From Candidatus Aramenus sp. CH1 (GTDB lineage: Archaea; Thermoproteota; Thermoprotei_A; Sulfolobales; Sulfolobaceae), in the NCBI GenBank assembly GCA_022678445.1, contig JALBWU010000001.1, positions 186,001 to 250,000 of the forward strand: a stretch of DNA of 64,000 nt, given 5' to 3'. Positions within the stretch are counted from its first letter, which is position 1, and each line of letters opens with the position of its first letter. Under the pieces are notes generated by a model. The model saw only the letters and a program-made list of their open reading frames with translations. It had not been told where the DNA came from and made no database searches. Shown one piece after another: positions 7,515 through 61,795 of the stretch. The translations under genes and the position numbers were made by a program.

Positions 7515-7529
7515 TTTGACGCATTACAT

Positions 7530-8913
7530 CTGACCTACTCCCTGCCCTGCGAGGGTTCTGCATAGGTCTTGAGCGTTACTCCCCCTTAAGGGAAATACTC
7601 CGTGATGTGAAGAGAAAGGAAAGAGCCAAAGCGTTGACAATCTTCCTTATTATAATGTTTAACGCACTGTTGACGTCGCTGTGAAGTTAACGACATCCCT
7701 TGGATTTCTGTCAACCTTAACATCATGGAAAGCGCAGAGCCGCGAGGTATTGTACTCAACAACTAGGTACGTCTTTACGCCGTACTCGTGGAGTTTGTTC
7801 ACTAACGCGTTTATTAACTTATGATAAGACCAAATGTTCACAGTAAACTTGTTACCCTTATCTTGAGCGATAAGATATGGATAGCCCAAGTAAACTGTGG
7901 AGACGCCAAAGACCACAAGGACTTAGCCAAGTGAAAGGCTAAAGTTCTGTAAATGAAGAAGCCTACGGTACAACTTTGCAAATACTCTTTCCCTCTCCAT
8001 CAACACTTCTTCCCTAGCTTCTTGTTCTTGAACCTTCTCAGCCTAGCTCTTCAACTTGTCGAGTTCGGCGATCCTCTCCTGAAAATAGAAGTTCGCTCTT
8101 CACTGCTGAACCGCGGTAAAAGAGAGGTAAAAGAGAACAGTAAGTTCTCAACAACGACAGTAGCCAACGCGTTTACGCCAAGGTCAATTGACGCAACTCA
8201 CCTTTAGGCTTTTGAACTGAATCTCTTTCGCCGTGGACGACGAGAGAGTCCTTCATTGGCTTACGCTTTTCTTAGAAGTGGTTCTGCCAACGTCGACTGG
8301 AATACAAGCGTAAAACTTGTTACCTTCAACGCGAATCTCCAGTCTACCTTGTACTCCAAACCACCTTAACCTTCAAAGGGCATCTCCATTTCCCAATCCT
8401 TCAGAAAGATGACGTGCCTTTCTTCGTTAACCTCATAGCGATCTTGCCTAACTACTAGGATCAACTTCCTCTTACCGCCTTCCAATAGCCTGGTGGTGAA
8501 ACGTGATTAGCAAATGGTAGGTCTTTCCTTTGCTTTAGTAACGAGAAGAATGATGACCAAGCTTCGTTGTTCTTCTGCAAAACAGCTTGAGCGTTAACTC
8601 CTAGAACCTTCTTGTACTTCTCGTAATACTTGTACCACGCGTCATTGAGGTCCACTTTCTTTTGCTGAAAGAATTGCTGTCTCCTCTCGTAGTTTGTCTC
8701 CTTCCACAGCTTTGCTGTTGCGTCTGCCAACTTCCTCAATTTCCTCTGTTGACCCACTAGGAAATAGCCTTACGACGATTGTTCTGACGCTTCCCTCATT
8801 GCGGGGGTAATCGGGGCTCCTCATCTTTAGTTCACCAAAGGAAGCGCCATAAAAGGAAATTGTTTTCATGTTAAAACCTTACCCCGCCAGGCGAGGTTTG
8901 TCTTCTTATTTAT
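7530..8913 (-). mobile_element. tnpB: Decayed IS200/IS605-family tnpB-only element, copy A
   Basis: Minus-strand remains of an RNA-guided nuclease TnpB, read from ATG at about 8869: N-terminal block MKTISFYGASFGELKMRS, a frameshift near 8759, then QRKLRKLADATAKLW...ANHVSPPGYWK (8461-8757), further decay, and VYLGYPYLIAQDKGNKF...VVEYNTSRLCAFH (7659-7916). The segment holding the last zinc-finger Cys and the HSDVNGA block is deleted. No tnpA is present. Right end CTGACCTACTCC at 7530; left end with a CCCCGCC/GGCGAGG hairpin near 8882-8895 and GTCTTCTTATTTAT. Clearly non-functional as protein. Ends were placed by comparing the three copies in the window. Confidence 0.87.
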
Positions 8914-24388: not shown

Positions 24389-25762
24389 ATAAATAAGAAG
24401 ACAAACCTCGCTTGGCGGGGTTAAGGTTTTAACATGAAAACGATTTCCTTTTATGGAACTTTCTTTGGCGAACTAAAGATGAGGAGCCCCGATTACTCCC
24501 GCAATTCCGGAAGCGTCAAAACCGCAGTTGTGAGGCTCTTCCCAAGTGGGTAAACAGAGGAAATTGAGGAAGTTGGCGGACGTGACTGAAAAGCTGTGGA
24601 ACGAGACAAACTACGATAGACAACAATCAAGAAAAGAAAGTGAACCTCAATGACGCGTGGAGGAAGTACAAGGAGGTTCTAGGAGTTAACGCTCAAGCTG
24701 TTTTCAGAAGAACAACTTGGTCGTCCTTCTTCTCCTTACTAAAGAAAGACCTACCGTTCGTGAATCACGTCTTATCGCCAAGCTATTGGAAGGCGGTAAG
24801 AGGAAAATCCTAGTCGTTAGGCAAGATCGCTACGAAGTTGACGAAGAAAGGCACGTTCTCTTTCTGAAGGATTGGGAAATGGAGATGCCCTTTGAAGGTA
24901 GGTTAAGGTGGTTTGGAGTACAAGGTAGGCTGGAGATTCGCGTTGAAGGCAACAACTTTTACGCCCACATTTCGTTGACGTTGGTAGAACCACCGCAAAG
25001 AAAAGCGTAAGCCAATGAAGAACTCTCTTGTCGTCCACGGCGAGAGAGAGATTCAGGTTGAGAAGCCTAAAAGTGAAAAGGTTGCGTCAATTGACTTAGG
25101 TATCAACATGTTGGCTACTGTCGTTGTTGAGAACGTACTGTTCTCTTTTACCGTGGTTCAGCAGTGAAGAGCAATTACTTTTACTTTGAGAAAAAGATCG
25201 CCGAACTCGACGAGCTGAAGAGCGAGACAGAAAAGGTTCAAGAAGTGAAAGCTAGGGAAGAGGTGTTGAGGGGAAAGGAAAAGAGTCACTAAGCTTTACC
25301 GTAGGCTTCTTCATTTACAGAACTTTAGCCTCTCATCTTGCTAACTCTTTGTGGTCTCTCGGCGTCTCCACAGTTTACTTGGGATATCCATATCTTATCG
25401 CTCAAGATAAGGGTAACAAGTTTACTGCGAACATTTGGTCTTATCGCAAGTTGGCGCTACAGTGAACAAACTCTACGAGCACGGCATAATCACGTACCTA
25501 GTGATTGAGCATAACACTTCGCGGCTCTGCGCTTACCATAACGTTAAGGTTGGCAGAAATCCCAAGGGGTGTCGTTAGCTGTCCTTTTGGTCGTTAACTT
25601 CACAGCGACGTTAGCGGAGCGTTAAACATTGTGAAACTAGGAGTGAAGAAGATTGTCAACGCTTTGGCTCTTTCCTTTCTCTTCACATCACGGGGTATCT
25701 CCCTTAAAGGGGAGTAACGCCTTAGACCTATGCAGAACCCTCGCAGGGCGAGGAGTAGGTCA
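24389..25762 (+). mobile_element. tnpB: Decayed IS200/IS605-family tnpB-only element, copy B
   Basis: Plus-strand TnpB remains beginning MKTISFYGTFFGELKMRSPD at 24434, with a TAA at 24550-24552 just where copies A and C are also frameshifted, a short deletion near 24635, and further frameshifts near 25137, 25280, 25460 and 25570. Recognisable blocks: RYEVDEERHVLFLKDWEMEM, RuvC-I-like SIDLGINMLATVVVE, VYLGYPYLIAQDKG, VIEHNTSRLCAYH. No tnpA. The left end is ATAAATAAGAAGAC plus a CCTCGC...GCGGGG hairpin; the right end is AGGAGTAGGTCAG at about 25750-25762, preceded by the structured 3' region shared by all copies. Non-functional as protein. Confidence 0.87.
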
Positions 25763-25800
25763 GAAACCTTGAAATTGGCTCTCCTCTCCACGCCAAGTAA

Positions 25801-27471
25801 CTAAGAGAGGCCGAAGTCCCTCGCCATTAAGTACCCCTGCCTTATTGCCTTGCCTATGCTGTACTGGTCGTCGGAGAACCTCCTCAGCACGAGGTCGTAC
25901 TCTCCAGAAGGTTCCTTCACTACTTTGACCCCGTAGCTCTCCAAGTTGACCCTAAGCAGGTACGCCCTAGTCCTGTCGAGTCCCCTTAACGACCTCTCCG
26001 TGACGTGTACCTCGTTGGACTTGGCTAGCTCGAAGGCGTAGTCGTGGTAGGCGTAGACGTTAGAGTCCACTAAAACCCTCTTTCCTACAACTCTAGGTAC
26101 CTCTGGTGCTCCTTCCTCTGGCAGGGCGTAGACGCATACGTCCCCTCCCTTGCACTCCTCTGCAGTGTTGAGGACTACCTTTACCCCCAACCTCCTCAGC
26201 TCGTCCTCGTAGTACTTGACGAGGACGGAGAACTCCCTGTACTTCCAGGGGTCCCTCACCATGTTCAGCTGACCGCCGAGCCTGCCCTCTTTCTCATAGA
26301 GCGTCACTGAGAAGCCCCTCATTGCCAGAACCCTCGCCACTTCCATACCCTTGACTCCCCCGCCCACTATCTTCACTTCTCCCTCTCCCCTTGCTAAGGG
26401 CGGAGAGCTCTCCCAGCCTAGCTCCGGGTTAACGTCGCACCTCACCTCCTTGTACACCACTCCCCTGCAGGATTGGTTGCACCTTATGCACGGCCTTATT
26501 GGGAGTCCCTTGAGCACCTTCCTAGGCCAATGGGGGTCGGCGAGGAGTTGCCTCCCCATCACAACGACGTCCGCGACCTCCCTCACCTTAAGCGCGTCCT
26601 CCGCAGTGATCACGGAGCCCACAAGGAAGAGAGGAACGTTTACCGTCTCCCTGACGACCTTTGCCTCCTCCACAAACGACGCTGTCCTGTAGTAGAAGGG
26701 CATGGAGGAGGACAGGGGGCCGTCCCTACCAGCTGACAAATGGACGTAGTCAATCCCTGCCCTCTCGAACCTCTTCGCGTACTCCGCCACCAGCTCCGGT
26801 GTAAGGCCCTCCTTGTCGAACTCCGTGACGCTTAGCCTTATCCCCACTGTCAAGTCGATCCTCTCCTTTATCCCCCTTACGATCTCCTCCACCAACCTAG
26901 CCCCGTCCCTGTACTCGTCCGTCCTCTTGTTCGTGGAAGGAGAGAGGAACTGGGCTAGTAGGTAGCCGTGGGCGCCGTGCAACTCGACCCCATCAAAGCC
27001 TGCTCTCTTGGCCCTCACTGACGCCTCTATGAACTCCCTCTTTGCCCTCTCCACGTCCTCCTTGGTCATCTCCCTGATCTCTCCCATGAGGGGTAGGTTT
27101 GAAGGCGCAATGGGAGTGTTGCCCCATATGACCTCCTTGGTCGTCTTCCTCCCTGCATGAACAAGTTGCACGAACACCCTGCTACCCAGGTCGTGGATGA
27201 GCTGGGTAAGCCTAAAGTACTTCGGCAGGAGCTCGTCGCTGTACATGCCCAGCTCGTTTACAGACCCCCTGGAGTCCACCTTGTCCACGTAGGTGTACTC
27301 TGTTATGACCAACCCTATCCCTCCCTTGGCCCTCTCCGCTAGGTATGCTATGTGCGCCTCAGAGGGGTAGCCCTCCGGCGTCGCGAGGTTGCTTATCATA
27401 GGCGACATGGCTATCCTGTTCTTCAGAACTACGTGGCCCACCTTTATTGGCTCAAATAACCTCTCGATCAT
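25801..27471 (-). CDS. Old-yellow-enzyme type NAD(P)H:flavin oxidoreductase / 2,4-dienoyl-CoA reductase-like, 556 aa
   Basis: N-terminal FMN-binding barrel (residues 1-330; MSPMISNLATPEGYP, VELHGAHGYLLAQFLSPSTN, DYVHLSAGR), a [4Fe-4S] site CIRCNQSC...RC (about 332-350), and a C-terminal dinucleotide-binding domain (VGGGVKGMEVARVLA, LYEKEGRLGGQL). At 556 aa it is about 100 residues shorter than FadH-type enzymes, mainly in the C-terminal domain. Substrate is likely an enoyl compound or enone; not provable here. The 120-bp stretch 25973-26092 is copied exactly elsewhere in the window. An inverted repeat TTAGTT-TCTG-AACTAA (27480-27495) lies just upstream of the start. Confidence 0.88.
   Translation of the reverse strand: MIERLFEPIKVGHVVLKNRIAMSPMISNLATPEGYPSEAHIAYLAERAKGGIGLVITEYTYVDKVDSRGSVNELGMYSDELLPKYFRLTQLIHDLGSRVFVQLVHAGRKTTKEVIWGNTPIAPSNLPLMGEIREMTKEDVERAKREFIEASVRAKRAGFDGVELHGAHGYLLAQFLSPSTNKRTDEYRDGARLVEEIVRGIKERIDLTVGIRLSVTEFDKEGLTPELVAEYAKRFERAGIDYVHLSAGRDGPLSSSMPFYYRTASFVEEAKVVRETVNVPLFLVGSVITAEDALKVREVADVVVMGRQLLADPHWPRKVLKGLPIRPCIRCNQSCRGVVYKEVRCDVNPELGWESSPPLARGEGEVKIVGGGVKGMEVARVLAMRGFSVTLYEKEGRLGGQLNMVRDPWKYREFSVLVKYYEDELRRLGVKVVLNTAEECKGGDVCVYALPEEGAPEVPRVVGKRVLVDSNVYAYHDYAFELAKSNEVHVTERSLRGLDRTRAYLLRVNLESYGVKVVKEPSGEYDLVLRRFSDDQYSIGKAIRQGYLMARDFGLS
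25973..26092 (-). repeat. Source copy of a perfect 120-bp duplication
   Basis: This part of the oxidoreductase gene (encoding about VGKRVLVDSNVYAYHDY onward to SLRGLDR) recurs base for base, in opposite orientation, at 29422-29541. I compared all 120 positions by eye and found no difference. Bases flanking each end differ between the copies. Confidence 0.9.
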
Positions 27472-28838: not shown

Positions 28839-29637
28839 ATGGATTACGTTAACCTCTTGAAGTCCCAGAACCCCTACGACAGGCTGGACGCGTGGTTTAA
28901 GGCAGAGTGGCTACTAAACAACGGCATGGCGACTAGGGAGGAGCTAGGGAGGTTAAAGGATTACTTCCTCGAGTTGCTCTCGCACCCGGACGAGACAGTT
29001 AGGTTACACGCATGGCAACAATCTCTGAAGCTACTGCCCCTGGGGGTAATAAACTTGGAGGACCTAAAGGTTAGGAAGGGCTACTTCTTGGACGCGCTTA
29101 ACGACGCTGAAGGGTGGTTGCTAGCGCTGGACTTGCTGAGGGGCAGGGTGGTAACAAAGGAGGAGCTGAAGGAGAAGGTGCCCCAATTCCTCTCCTTACT
29201 CAAGGGGAACGAGCTGAACAAGGTGGCTAGCTGGTCGCTGGTGCCCCAGATGATATCAGAAGGGGTCGTGGTCAGGGGAGAGGCAGAAGCGCTGAAGCGG
29301 TACTTGTTCGACCTACTGGACTCCCCCGCCTACGACGTCCAGTTCAACGTGCTCTTCCTCATAGCGGAGCTGTACGAGAGGGGTTTCTTGAAGGAGGAAG
29401 ACGCGAAAAACGTGAGGGAGAAGTTGTAGGAAAGAGGGTTTTAGTGGACTCTAACGTCTACGCCTACCACGACTACGCCTTCGAGCTAGCCAAGTCCAAC
29501 GAGGTACACGTCACGGAGAGGTCGTTAAGGGGACTCGACAGATGAGGGAGCTCACGTCCAGGAAGGAGTTCTCCCAGTACTTAAGGCTGTACGAGAAGGA
29601 CGCCAGCGCTCTAAGGAAGGCGTTAGAGGGACAGTAA
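28839..29637 (+). pseudogene. Helical-repeat (HEAT-like) protein gene interrupted by a 122-bp insertion
   Basis: The present frame runs 28839-29429 (196 aa) and shows repeated helical units of about 35-40 residues (REELGRLKDYFLELLSHPDE, LEDLKVRKGYFLDALNDAEG, KEELKEKVPQFLSLLKGNEL, EAEALKRYLFDLLDSPAYD). Its stop lies inside a 120-bp copy of the neighbouring oxidoreductase gene. An 8-bp repeat TGAGGGAG flanks the insertion (29413-29420 and 29543-29550). Deleting the insert with one repeat copy joins Glu194 to LTSRKEFSQYLRLYEKDASA and extends the frame to TAA 29635-29637, giving a 222-aa protein. Function unknown; HEAT-like repeats usually bind proteins. The truncated form may still be functional. 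Confidence 0.85.
29422..29541 (+). repeat. Inserted perfect 120-bp copy of an oxidoreductase gene fragment
   Basis: Identical to the reverse complement of 25973-26092, located 3.3 kb away. It supplies the current stop codon of the helical-repeat gene (TAG 29427-29429). Confidence 0.92.
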
Positions 29638-30267
29638 CCTCTCAAAGTTCTTGTACGCTACTGCCTCGTCGTAGGGGAAACCCTTAGCGGACTCCAATAG
29701 CTCAACGCCCCTGTAGGGGGAGTCGCTACCGTAGACCGACCTCTCCCTTGGGAACCTCGAGGCCTCCTCCCCGCTCTCGACTACGTAGTACACCCTCCTG
29801 TCGTCCAACGTAAAGGACGAGTAGAGCAAGAGGACTTTCACCTCCCTAGTGGAGAACAGCTCCTCCAGTTCCTCCCTTTTAGCCCCGTGTATGAAGAGGA
29901 GTTGCCCCTCCCTTTCAACTGCATTGTACAGAAAGCCCAGTCTGTCGTCAAGGAGGGAGAAGTCGTGGTGGACAGGGCTCAGCACAAACCCTATTACTCC
30001 CTTCTCCAGTTGCCTCTTTACCTCCGTCTCTGCAGGCACCCTGCACCTAGGGTTGTATAACCTCAGCCTCAGGAACTTGTCACCCCTGTCCCTTGCCCAC
30101 AAGTACTGCTGGTAGAACCCATCAACGCAACACTCGCACGCGTACTTGTAGAGGGGGTTCAGCACAACCCCCTCCACCACCACGTCTCCCTCCTCCATCC
30201 TAGGCGTGGCCGTGTACTTGTAGAGCTCTACGCCGTAGTGGGTGTTGGCGTCTATAAATCTCCTCAC
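29623..30267 (-). CDS. Amidohydrolase-like TIM-barrel protein, 214 aa
   Basis: N-terminal FIDANTHYG, central LSPVHHDFSLLDDRLGFLYN and LLFIHGAKREE, and C-terminal SVYGSDSPYRG match the spacing of amidohydrolase-2 type metal-dependent hydrolases (His after strand 1, His in IHGA, Asp in GSDSP). It is shorter than usual and the first metal motif reads NTHYG rather than HxH, so catalysis is uncertain. An ECCVDGF segment adds two Cys. Its end overlaps the restored end of the helical-repeat gene by 15 bp. Confidence 0.65.
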   Translation of the reverse strand: MRRFIDANTHYGVELYKYTATPRMEEGDVVVEGVVLNPLYKYACECCVDGFYQQYLWARDRGDKFLRLRLYNPRCRVPAETEVKRQLEKGVIGFVLSPVHHDFSLLDDRLGFLYNAVEREGQLLFIHGAKREELEELFSTREVKVLLLYSSFTLDDRRVYYVVESGEEASRFPRERSVYGSDSPYRGVELLESAKGFPYDEAVAYKNFERLLSL

Positions 30268-60359: not shown

Positions 60360-61795
60360 CTGACCTCCTCCCCACCCTAAAGGGCGAGGGTTCTGCCTAG
60401 GTCTAAGGCGTTACTCCCCTTTATGGGAGTTACTCCGTGATGTGACGAGAAAAGAAAAAGGCTTCTTCAACGCGTTAACAATCTTCTTAACTCCTAGTTT
60501 CACAATGTTTAACGCTCCGTTGACGTCGCTGTGAAGCTTATGGCCAAGAGGACAGTTTACGACTCCCCTAGGCCTTCTCGTTACATTTGCGTTATGGTAA
60601 GCGCAAAAACGCGAAGTATTGTACTCAATCACTAGGTACGTCTTTATGCCGTATTCGTAAAACTTGTTCGCTATAGCGCCAACTTGCGATAAGACCAAAT
60701 GTTCGCAGTAAACTTGTTACCCTTATCTTGAGAGATGAAGTAAGGATATCCCAAATACACTGTTGAAACGCCAAGATTCCACAAATACTTAGCAAGATGA
60801 GATGCTAAAGTTCTGTAAATGAAGAAGCCTAGGTGAATCTTCGAGAAAATTCTTTCCCTTTCCCTCAGCACTTCTTCCACAGCTTTCACTTCTTGAACCT
60901 TCTCTGTCTCACTCTTCAGCTCGTCGAGTTCGGCGATCTTTTTCTGAAAATAGAAGTAATCGCTCTTAACGAGAGAACCCCTATAAAATAGAACAGTACC
61001 GTCCTCAACAACGACAGTAGCCAACGCGTTTACGCCAAGGTCAATTGACGCAACCTTGTTACCTTTAGGTCTCTCAACTTGAATCTCTCTCCTCAAACCG
61101 TGGACGACGAGAGAGTCCTTCATCGGCTTACGCTTTTCTTAGAAGTGGTTCTGCCAACGTCAACGAAATGTGGGCGTAAAAGTTGTTGCCTTCAACGCGA
61201 ATCTCCAGTCTACCTTGTACTCCAAACCACCTTAACCTACCTTCAAAGGGCATCTTCATTTCCCAATCCTTCAGAGAGATGACGTGCCTTTCTTCGTCGA
61301 CCTCGTAACGATCTTGCCTAACTACTAGGATCAACTTCCTCTTACCGTCTTCCTTCCAATAGCTTGGTGGTGAAACGTGATTAGCAAATGGTAGGTCTTT
61401 CCTTTGCTTTAGTAACGAGAAGAATGATGACCAAGCTTCGTTGTTCTTCTGAAAACAGCTTGAGCGTTAACTCCTAGGACCTTCTTGTACTTCTCGTAAT
61501 ACTTGTACCACGTTTCCTTAAAGTTGACATTCTTTTCTTGGAAGAATTGCTGTCTATCGTAGTTAGTCTCGTTCCACAGCTTTGCAGTTGCGTCTGCCAA
61601 CTTCCTCAATTTCCTCTGTTTACCCACTAGGAAATAGCCTCACGACGATTGTTCTAACGCTTCCCTCATTGCGGGGGTAATCGGCCCCCGCCCCTCATCT
61701 TTAGTTCGCCAAAGGAAGCGCCATAAAAGTAAATTGTTTTCATACTTTAAAACCTTACCCCGCCTTAAAAGGCGAGGTTTGTCTTCTTTTTTTAT
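60360..61795 (-). mobile_element. tnpB: Decayed IS200/IS605-family tnpB-only element, copy C
   Basis: Best preserved copy. Minus-strand start MKTIYFYGASFGELKM at 61742, an extra-G frameshift near 61690, the shared frameshift at about 61630, then QRKLRKLADATAKLW (61409-61627), RYEVDEERHVISLKDWEM (61128-61334), RuvC-I SIDLGVNALATVVVEDG (60671-61123), and VIEYNTSRFCAYHNAN...NCPLGHKLHSDVNGALN (60411-60698) with RuvC-II Glu, zinc-binding Cys/His and RuvC-III Asp still present. Ends: CTGACCTCCTCC at 60360 and a CCCCGCC/GGCGAGG hairpin followed by GTCTTCTTTT at about 61758-61795. No tnpA. Confidence 0.88.

Follow-up and report, generated by a model that had tools for sequence, protein, structure and literature searches.

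How a piece of one protein-coding gene comes to lie, inverted and letter-perfect, between two short direct repeats inside a neighbouring gene is the question raised by a locus of "Candidatus Aramenus sp. CH1", whose genome was assembled from a metagenome of the El Chichon crater lake (PMC11320969). In the present work, we examine the window, that is, the whole stretch of 64,000 nucleotides corresponding to C1:186001-250000 of the CH1 assembly (1,930,407 bp in 24 contigs), and compare it with the sister species "Ca. Aramenus sulfurataquae" AZ1 (contig ASRH01000008). We will argue that the piece was probably copied from its neighbour by the cell's own enzymes.

The inserted segment (29422-29541, plus strand) and the reverse complement of 25973-26092 agree at 120/120 positions, a claim of the earlier note that a base-by-base comparison bears out. 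An exact match of 120 nt is not due to chance, and the sequence has just two copies in the whole 1.93-Mb assembly, one of them being the source gene. The 8-bp direct repeat TGAGGGAG stands on both sides of the insert (29413-29420 and 29543-29550, plus strand). A repeat of this length placed no more than one base from each end has a chance probability of about 1e-4 (9 placements / 4^8). The earlier note had these flanks right, but overlooked a single extra A on each side, at the junction of the left repeat with the copied segment (29421) and at that of the copied segment with the right repeat (29542), both on the plus strand; the donor has a G at both places. The complete structure is TGAGGGAG-A-120-A-TGAGGGAG. 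The microhomology at the junctions can be read either as 0 nt, if exact pairing is demanded, or as 2 nt (AG) plus one inserted base at the left, with an added A at the right. The right-hand extra A also forms, with the bases that follow it, an ATG codon whose frame is that of the orphaned gene tail discussed below (MRELTSRKEF...; 29542-29637), which is probably a coincidence.

The insert interrupts a helical-repeat-type gene without a Pfam match (28839-29429, plus strand). In its present frame the gene stops at the TAG at 29427-29429 after 196 codons, having lost its last 28 codons and gained two foreign ones at the new end. The orphaned 3' end (LTSRKEFSQYLRLYEKDASALRKALEGQ; 29551-29637, plus strand) was recognised from the alignment to eight orthologues and from a relic in AZ1. 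When 28839-29420 is joined to 29551-29637, which removes 130 nt (the insert and one copy of the repeat), a gene of 222 codons is restored with its stop ending at 29637, just as had been proposed. All eight orthologues, which come from other genera of the family and are 28-37% identical, run uninterrupted through the insertion point instead of ending at the TAG, and their tails beyond it carry a conserved F...YEKD-like motif. The insert thus sits in an ancestrally intact gene, in agreement with the earlier note.

AZ1 has lost the interrupted gene. The synteny between CH1 and AZ1 stops near window position 29554, and a relic of the gene's final codons, disrupted by a frameshift, is found on AZ1 contig 8 (L046:7860-7990), beside a hemerythrin-like frame and at a locus that is without the oxidoreductase/transporter/helical-gene block. 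Over the short part in which this relic spans the insertion point, the alignment is weak and has no insert. Protein searches of genome contigs matched AZ1 with the gene downstream of the interrupted gene as the query, and gave no match with the interrupted gene itself. The downstream protein of 214 aa (29623-30267) belongs to no Pfam family. Because the orthologues continue through the site and the AZ1 relic is free of the insert, the insertion is a derived state in CH1, and a recent one unless the two copies have been kept alike by gene conversion. The 0/120 differences place the divergence between copy and donor below about 2.5% at 95%, as compared to ca 13% between CH1 and AZ1 near the site. 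AZ1 does without the gene entirely, so its interruption in CH1 probably matters little to the cell.

That the insertion is real in the assembly is confirmed by these comparisons. An artefact of the library or of the short-read metagenome assembly is in our judgement quite improbable, although it has some points in its favour. SPAdes (k up to 111) was run on Illumina 2x150 Nextera reads (SRR18166207) giving 23x coverage, after which Swalo joined contigs into scaffolds and IMAGE2 closed gaps (PMC11320969). A hairpin at the target site (see below) could reduce the coverage, and the odd single bases at both junctions lack an explanation. However, an invented insert would require reads over both junctions, and gap-filling works from local read pairs, while the donor is 3.3 kb off. 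The donor gene is moreover intact in the assembled orientation, and the CH1 sequence sampled for self-comparison (712 kb, 37% of the genome) holds no N runs and nothing comparably odd. The possibility that the assembler had inverted the 3.3-kb interval was also considered and was rejected, the donor gene being intact as assembled.

We now turn our attention to the source of the insert. The donor gene (25801-27471, minus strand) encodes an intact 556-aa NADH:flavin oxidoreductase of the old yellow enzyme / 2,4-dienoyl-CoA reductase type (Pfam PF00724, E=1.4e-64), and the 120-bp donor segment (25973-26092, minus strand) lies inside its coding region. As the gene retains this segment, the event was of the copy-and-paste kind. 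Orthologues of the donor gene in other genomes align over their full length, the donated segment included. On this comparison the segment is ancestral in the oxidoreductase gene, and the transfer therefore ran from there to the helical gene, as a copy. The distance of 3.3 kb between donor and insertion has a probability of only about 0.4% by chance in a 1.93-Mb genome.

An insert between short direct repeats calls to mind transposition, and the earlier note had listed mobilisation by a resident recombinase among the possible routes. A transposase or integrase acting in trans would have left the repeat as its target-site duplication, and the target duplications of IS1 and IS256-type transposases include 8 bp in their range. 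The insert has no terminal inverted repeats, however (its ends, AGTTGTAGG... and ...GACTCGACAG, are not mutual inverted repeats), and no transposase of the IS1 (PF03400), IS256 (PF00872) or DDE_Tnp_1 (PF01609) families was detected in the CH1 genome. The IS elements of the window are of a degraded IS605 OrfB type, a group that to our knowledge makes no target duplication. Untemplated junction bases are, in addition, unusual for transposition, and the assembly contains no further copy. This route is hence disfavoured, and we hold it to be highly improbable, while the statement that the insert is no ordinary insertion sequence stands, as it has neither terminal inverted repeats nor a family of copies. 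The IS605 OrfB (TnpB-like) elements of the window are three related degraded copies (7529-8885, 24418-25764 and 60384-61743), the middle one stopping ca 209 bp short of the donor segment. On many contigs, termini of the same element are found again, several of them at contig ends.

Another option is that donor mRNA was reverse-transcribed and then inserted, or that the fragment was integrated off-target as a CRISPR spacer. Along the coding strand of the interrupted gene, the insert shows the sense orientation of its donor, which would suit either scenario. No reverse transcriptase (RVT_1, PF00078) was detected in the CH1 genome, however, and the insert carries no A-rich tail, so that the suggestion of an mRNA intermediate is largely refuted. 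For a spacer, on the other hand, 120 bp is far too long, and the flanks consist of just an 8-bp repeat. We find these scenarios scarcely credible. The searches for the reverse transcriptase, IS1, IS256 and DDE_Tnp_1, like that for Ku considered below, each matched their family in control genomes.

It is important to point out a feature of the target that is absent from the earlier note, as is the AZ1 relic. The empty site, ACGTGAG-GGAG-CTCACGT, forms a hairpin with a stem of 7 perfect base pairs and a loop of 4 nt, composed of the left arm ACGTGAG (29410-29416), the loop GGAG (29417-29420) and the right arm CTCACGT (29551-29557), all on the plus strand. The insertion point coincides with the boundary between the loop and the right arm, and the 8-bp repeat comprises the loop and the four bases of the left arm next to it, one of its edges thus falling on the stem-loop boundary. 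Hairpins of such strength cover 0.34% of the window for loops of up to 4 nt and 0.98% for loops of 3-10 nt, and the folding energy of the target site is within the lowest 0.4% of 30-nt stretches. The association, which was noticed post hoc, suggests that the hairpin may have stalled a replication fork or broken at the target.

The explanation that we favour, and consider probable, is a one-off templated insertion by the repair or replication machinery of the cell at this hairpin, with the template 3.3 kb away. The event would begin with a stalled fork or a staggered break at the hairpin. The 3' end would receive an untemplated A, copy 120 nt from the opposite strand of the nearby DNA, and then depart. 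After the addition of a second A, it would re-join 8 nt upstream of its point of departure, which would duplicate the 8 nt; alternatively, the re-joining could take place onto a complementary 8-nt overhang. That the donor is just 3.3 kb away fits a switch inside one fork or break region. Candidate agents would be the primase PriSL and a Y-family polymerase, a gene for which is present in the CH1 genome. In Saccharolobus islandicus, PriSL pairs strands through 2-4 shared nt, has terminal transfer activity, continues synthesis over discontinuous templates and promotes end joining (PMC12019639). Two observations count against a templated insertion, namely that the junction microhomology is weaker than usual for microhomology-mediated template switching, and that the event is single in the sampled sequence.

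The new DNA could instead have come as a free fragment. Here, a 120-bp piece of the donor region, originating from a sister chromosome, would enter a break with an 8-nt stagger through alternative end joining, and fill-in would create the repeat. A staggered cut followed by fill-in yields precisely such flanks. Junctions with one base added and no microhomology are what end joining typically leaves, and this process exists in Sulfolobales (PMC12019639). With microhomology nearly absent and bases added, end-joining capture stays in play. However, no Ku gene was detected in the CH1 genome, the model needs the fragment to be supplied separately and the break to be staggered by 8 nt, and random capture gives no preference for a donor only 3.3 kb away. 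As the donor is local and inverted, copying from a template is preferred over random capture, which we consider rather unlikely. Either way, the class of explanation put forward in the earlier note, DNA acquired in the course of break repair, is the best one.

The frequency of such events was assessed in two ways. Self-comparison of the 712-kb sample revealed no second copied fragment of the same structure, the other repeats there belonging for the most part to IS ends, tRNA genes or the interior of coding sequences. A 106-bp exact direct repeat with copies 444 bp apart lies apparently in one coding sequence (C1:285253-285809; L077:15253-15809) and may represent a duplicated domain in a surface protein. 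In the comparison with AZ1 (a sample of 776 kb), no other copied-fragment insertion was found in the 267 kb contained in alignments >500 bp, where small in-alignment insertions could escape. With no second event in the sampled sequence, we treat the insertion as a single accident. A more general scenario, that Sulfolobales possess a route, perhaps driven by PriSL, by which nearby fragments of ca 100 bp are copied into staggered breaks at hairpins and leave 8-bp duplications, is one that we put forward as a speculation and regard as unlikely. If it were true, transposon-like footprints would arise without any mobile element.

Finally, the proposed templated insertion can be set against known systems. 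The closest parallels are the templated insertions at breaks and forks of eukaryotes, attributed to MMBIR / template switching and described in yeast (PMC11724301) and in cancer (PMC8421209). Like these, the CH1 insert is a short, inverted copy of nearby DNA with the donor retained and small additions at the junctions; unlike them, it is archaeal, has an 8-bp direct duplication and shows no clear microhomology. It is also longer, at 120 bp, than the inverted insertions in yeast, which measure mostly 5-34 bp according to the abstract (PMC11724301). Templated insertions at large rearrangements are similar in their size range (median 184 bp) and in drawing on sequence from near the breakpoints, but they come in chains, whereas in CH1 there is one insert and the gene around it is otherwise collinear.

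Within the Sulfolobales, PriSL-dependent microhomology end joining in S. islandicus shares with the present case an error-prone character, terminal transfer and small insertions; its products are mostly indels of 1-2 bp, and the accessible sections of that paper describe no templated insertion of 120 bp (PMC12019639). Nor did a non-exhaustive search of the open-access literature return a report of an archaeal templated insertion of such size. The CH1 insert is a concrete product to seek when end-joining or template-switching enzymes of Sulfolobales are tested, and a natural archaeal templated insertion of which the empty site, the donor, the junctions and the hairpin are all recoverable. With the insertion sequences and MITEs of Sulfolobales it has in common the short flanking direct repeat, but it is a segment of an ordinary gene, bounded by no terminal inverted repeats and belonging to no copy family, and it cautions against taking short direct repeats on both sides of an insert as proof of transposition. 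Events of this class are known from eukaryotes; it is the archaeal setting, combined with a transposon-like footprint, that is noteworthy here.
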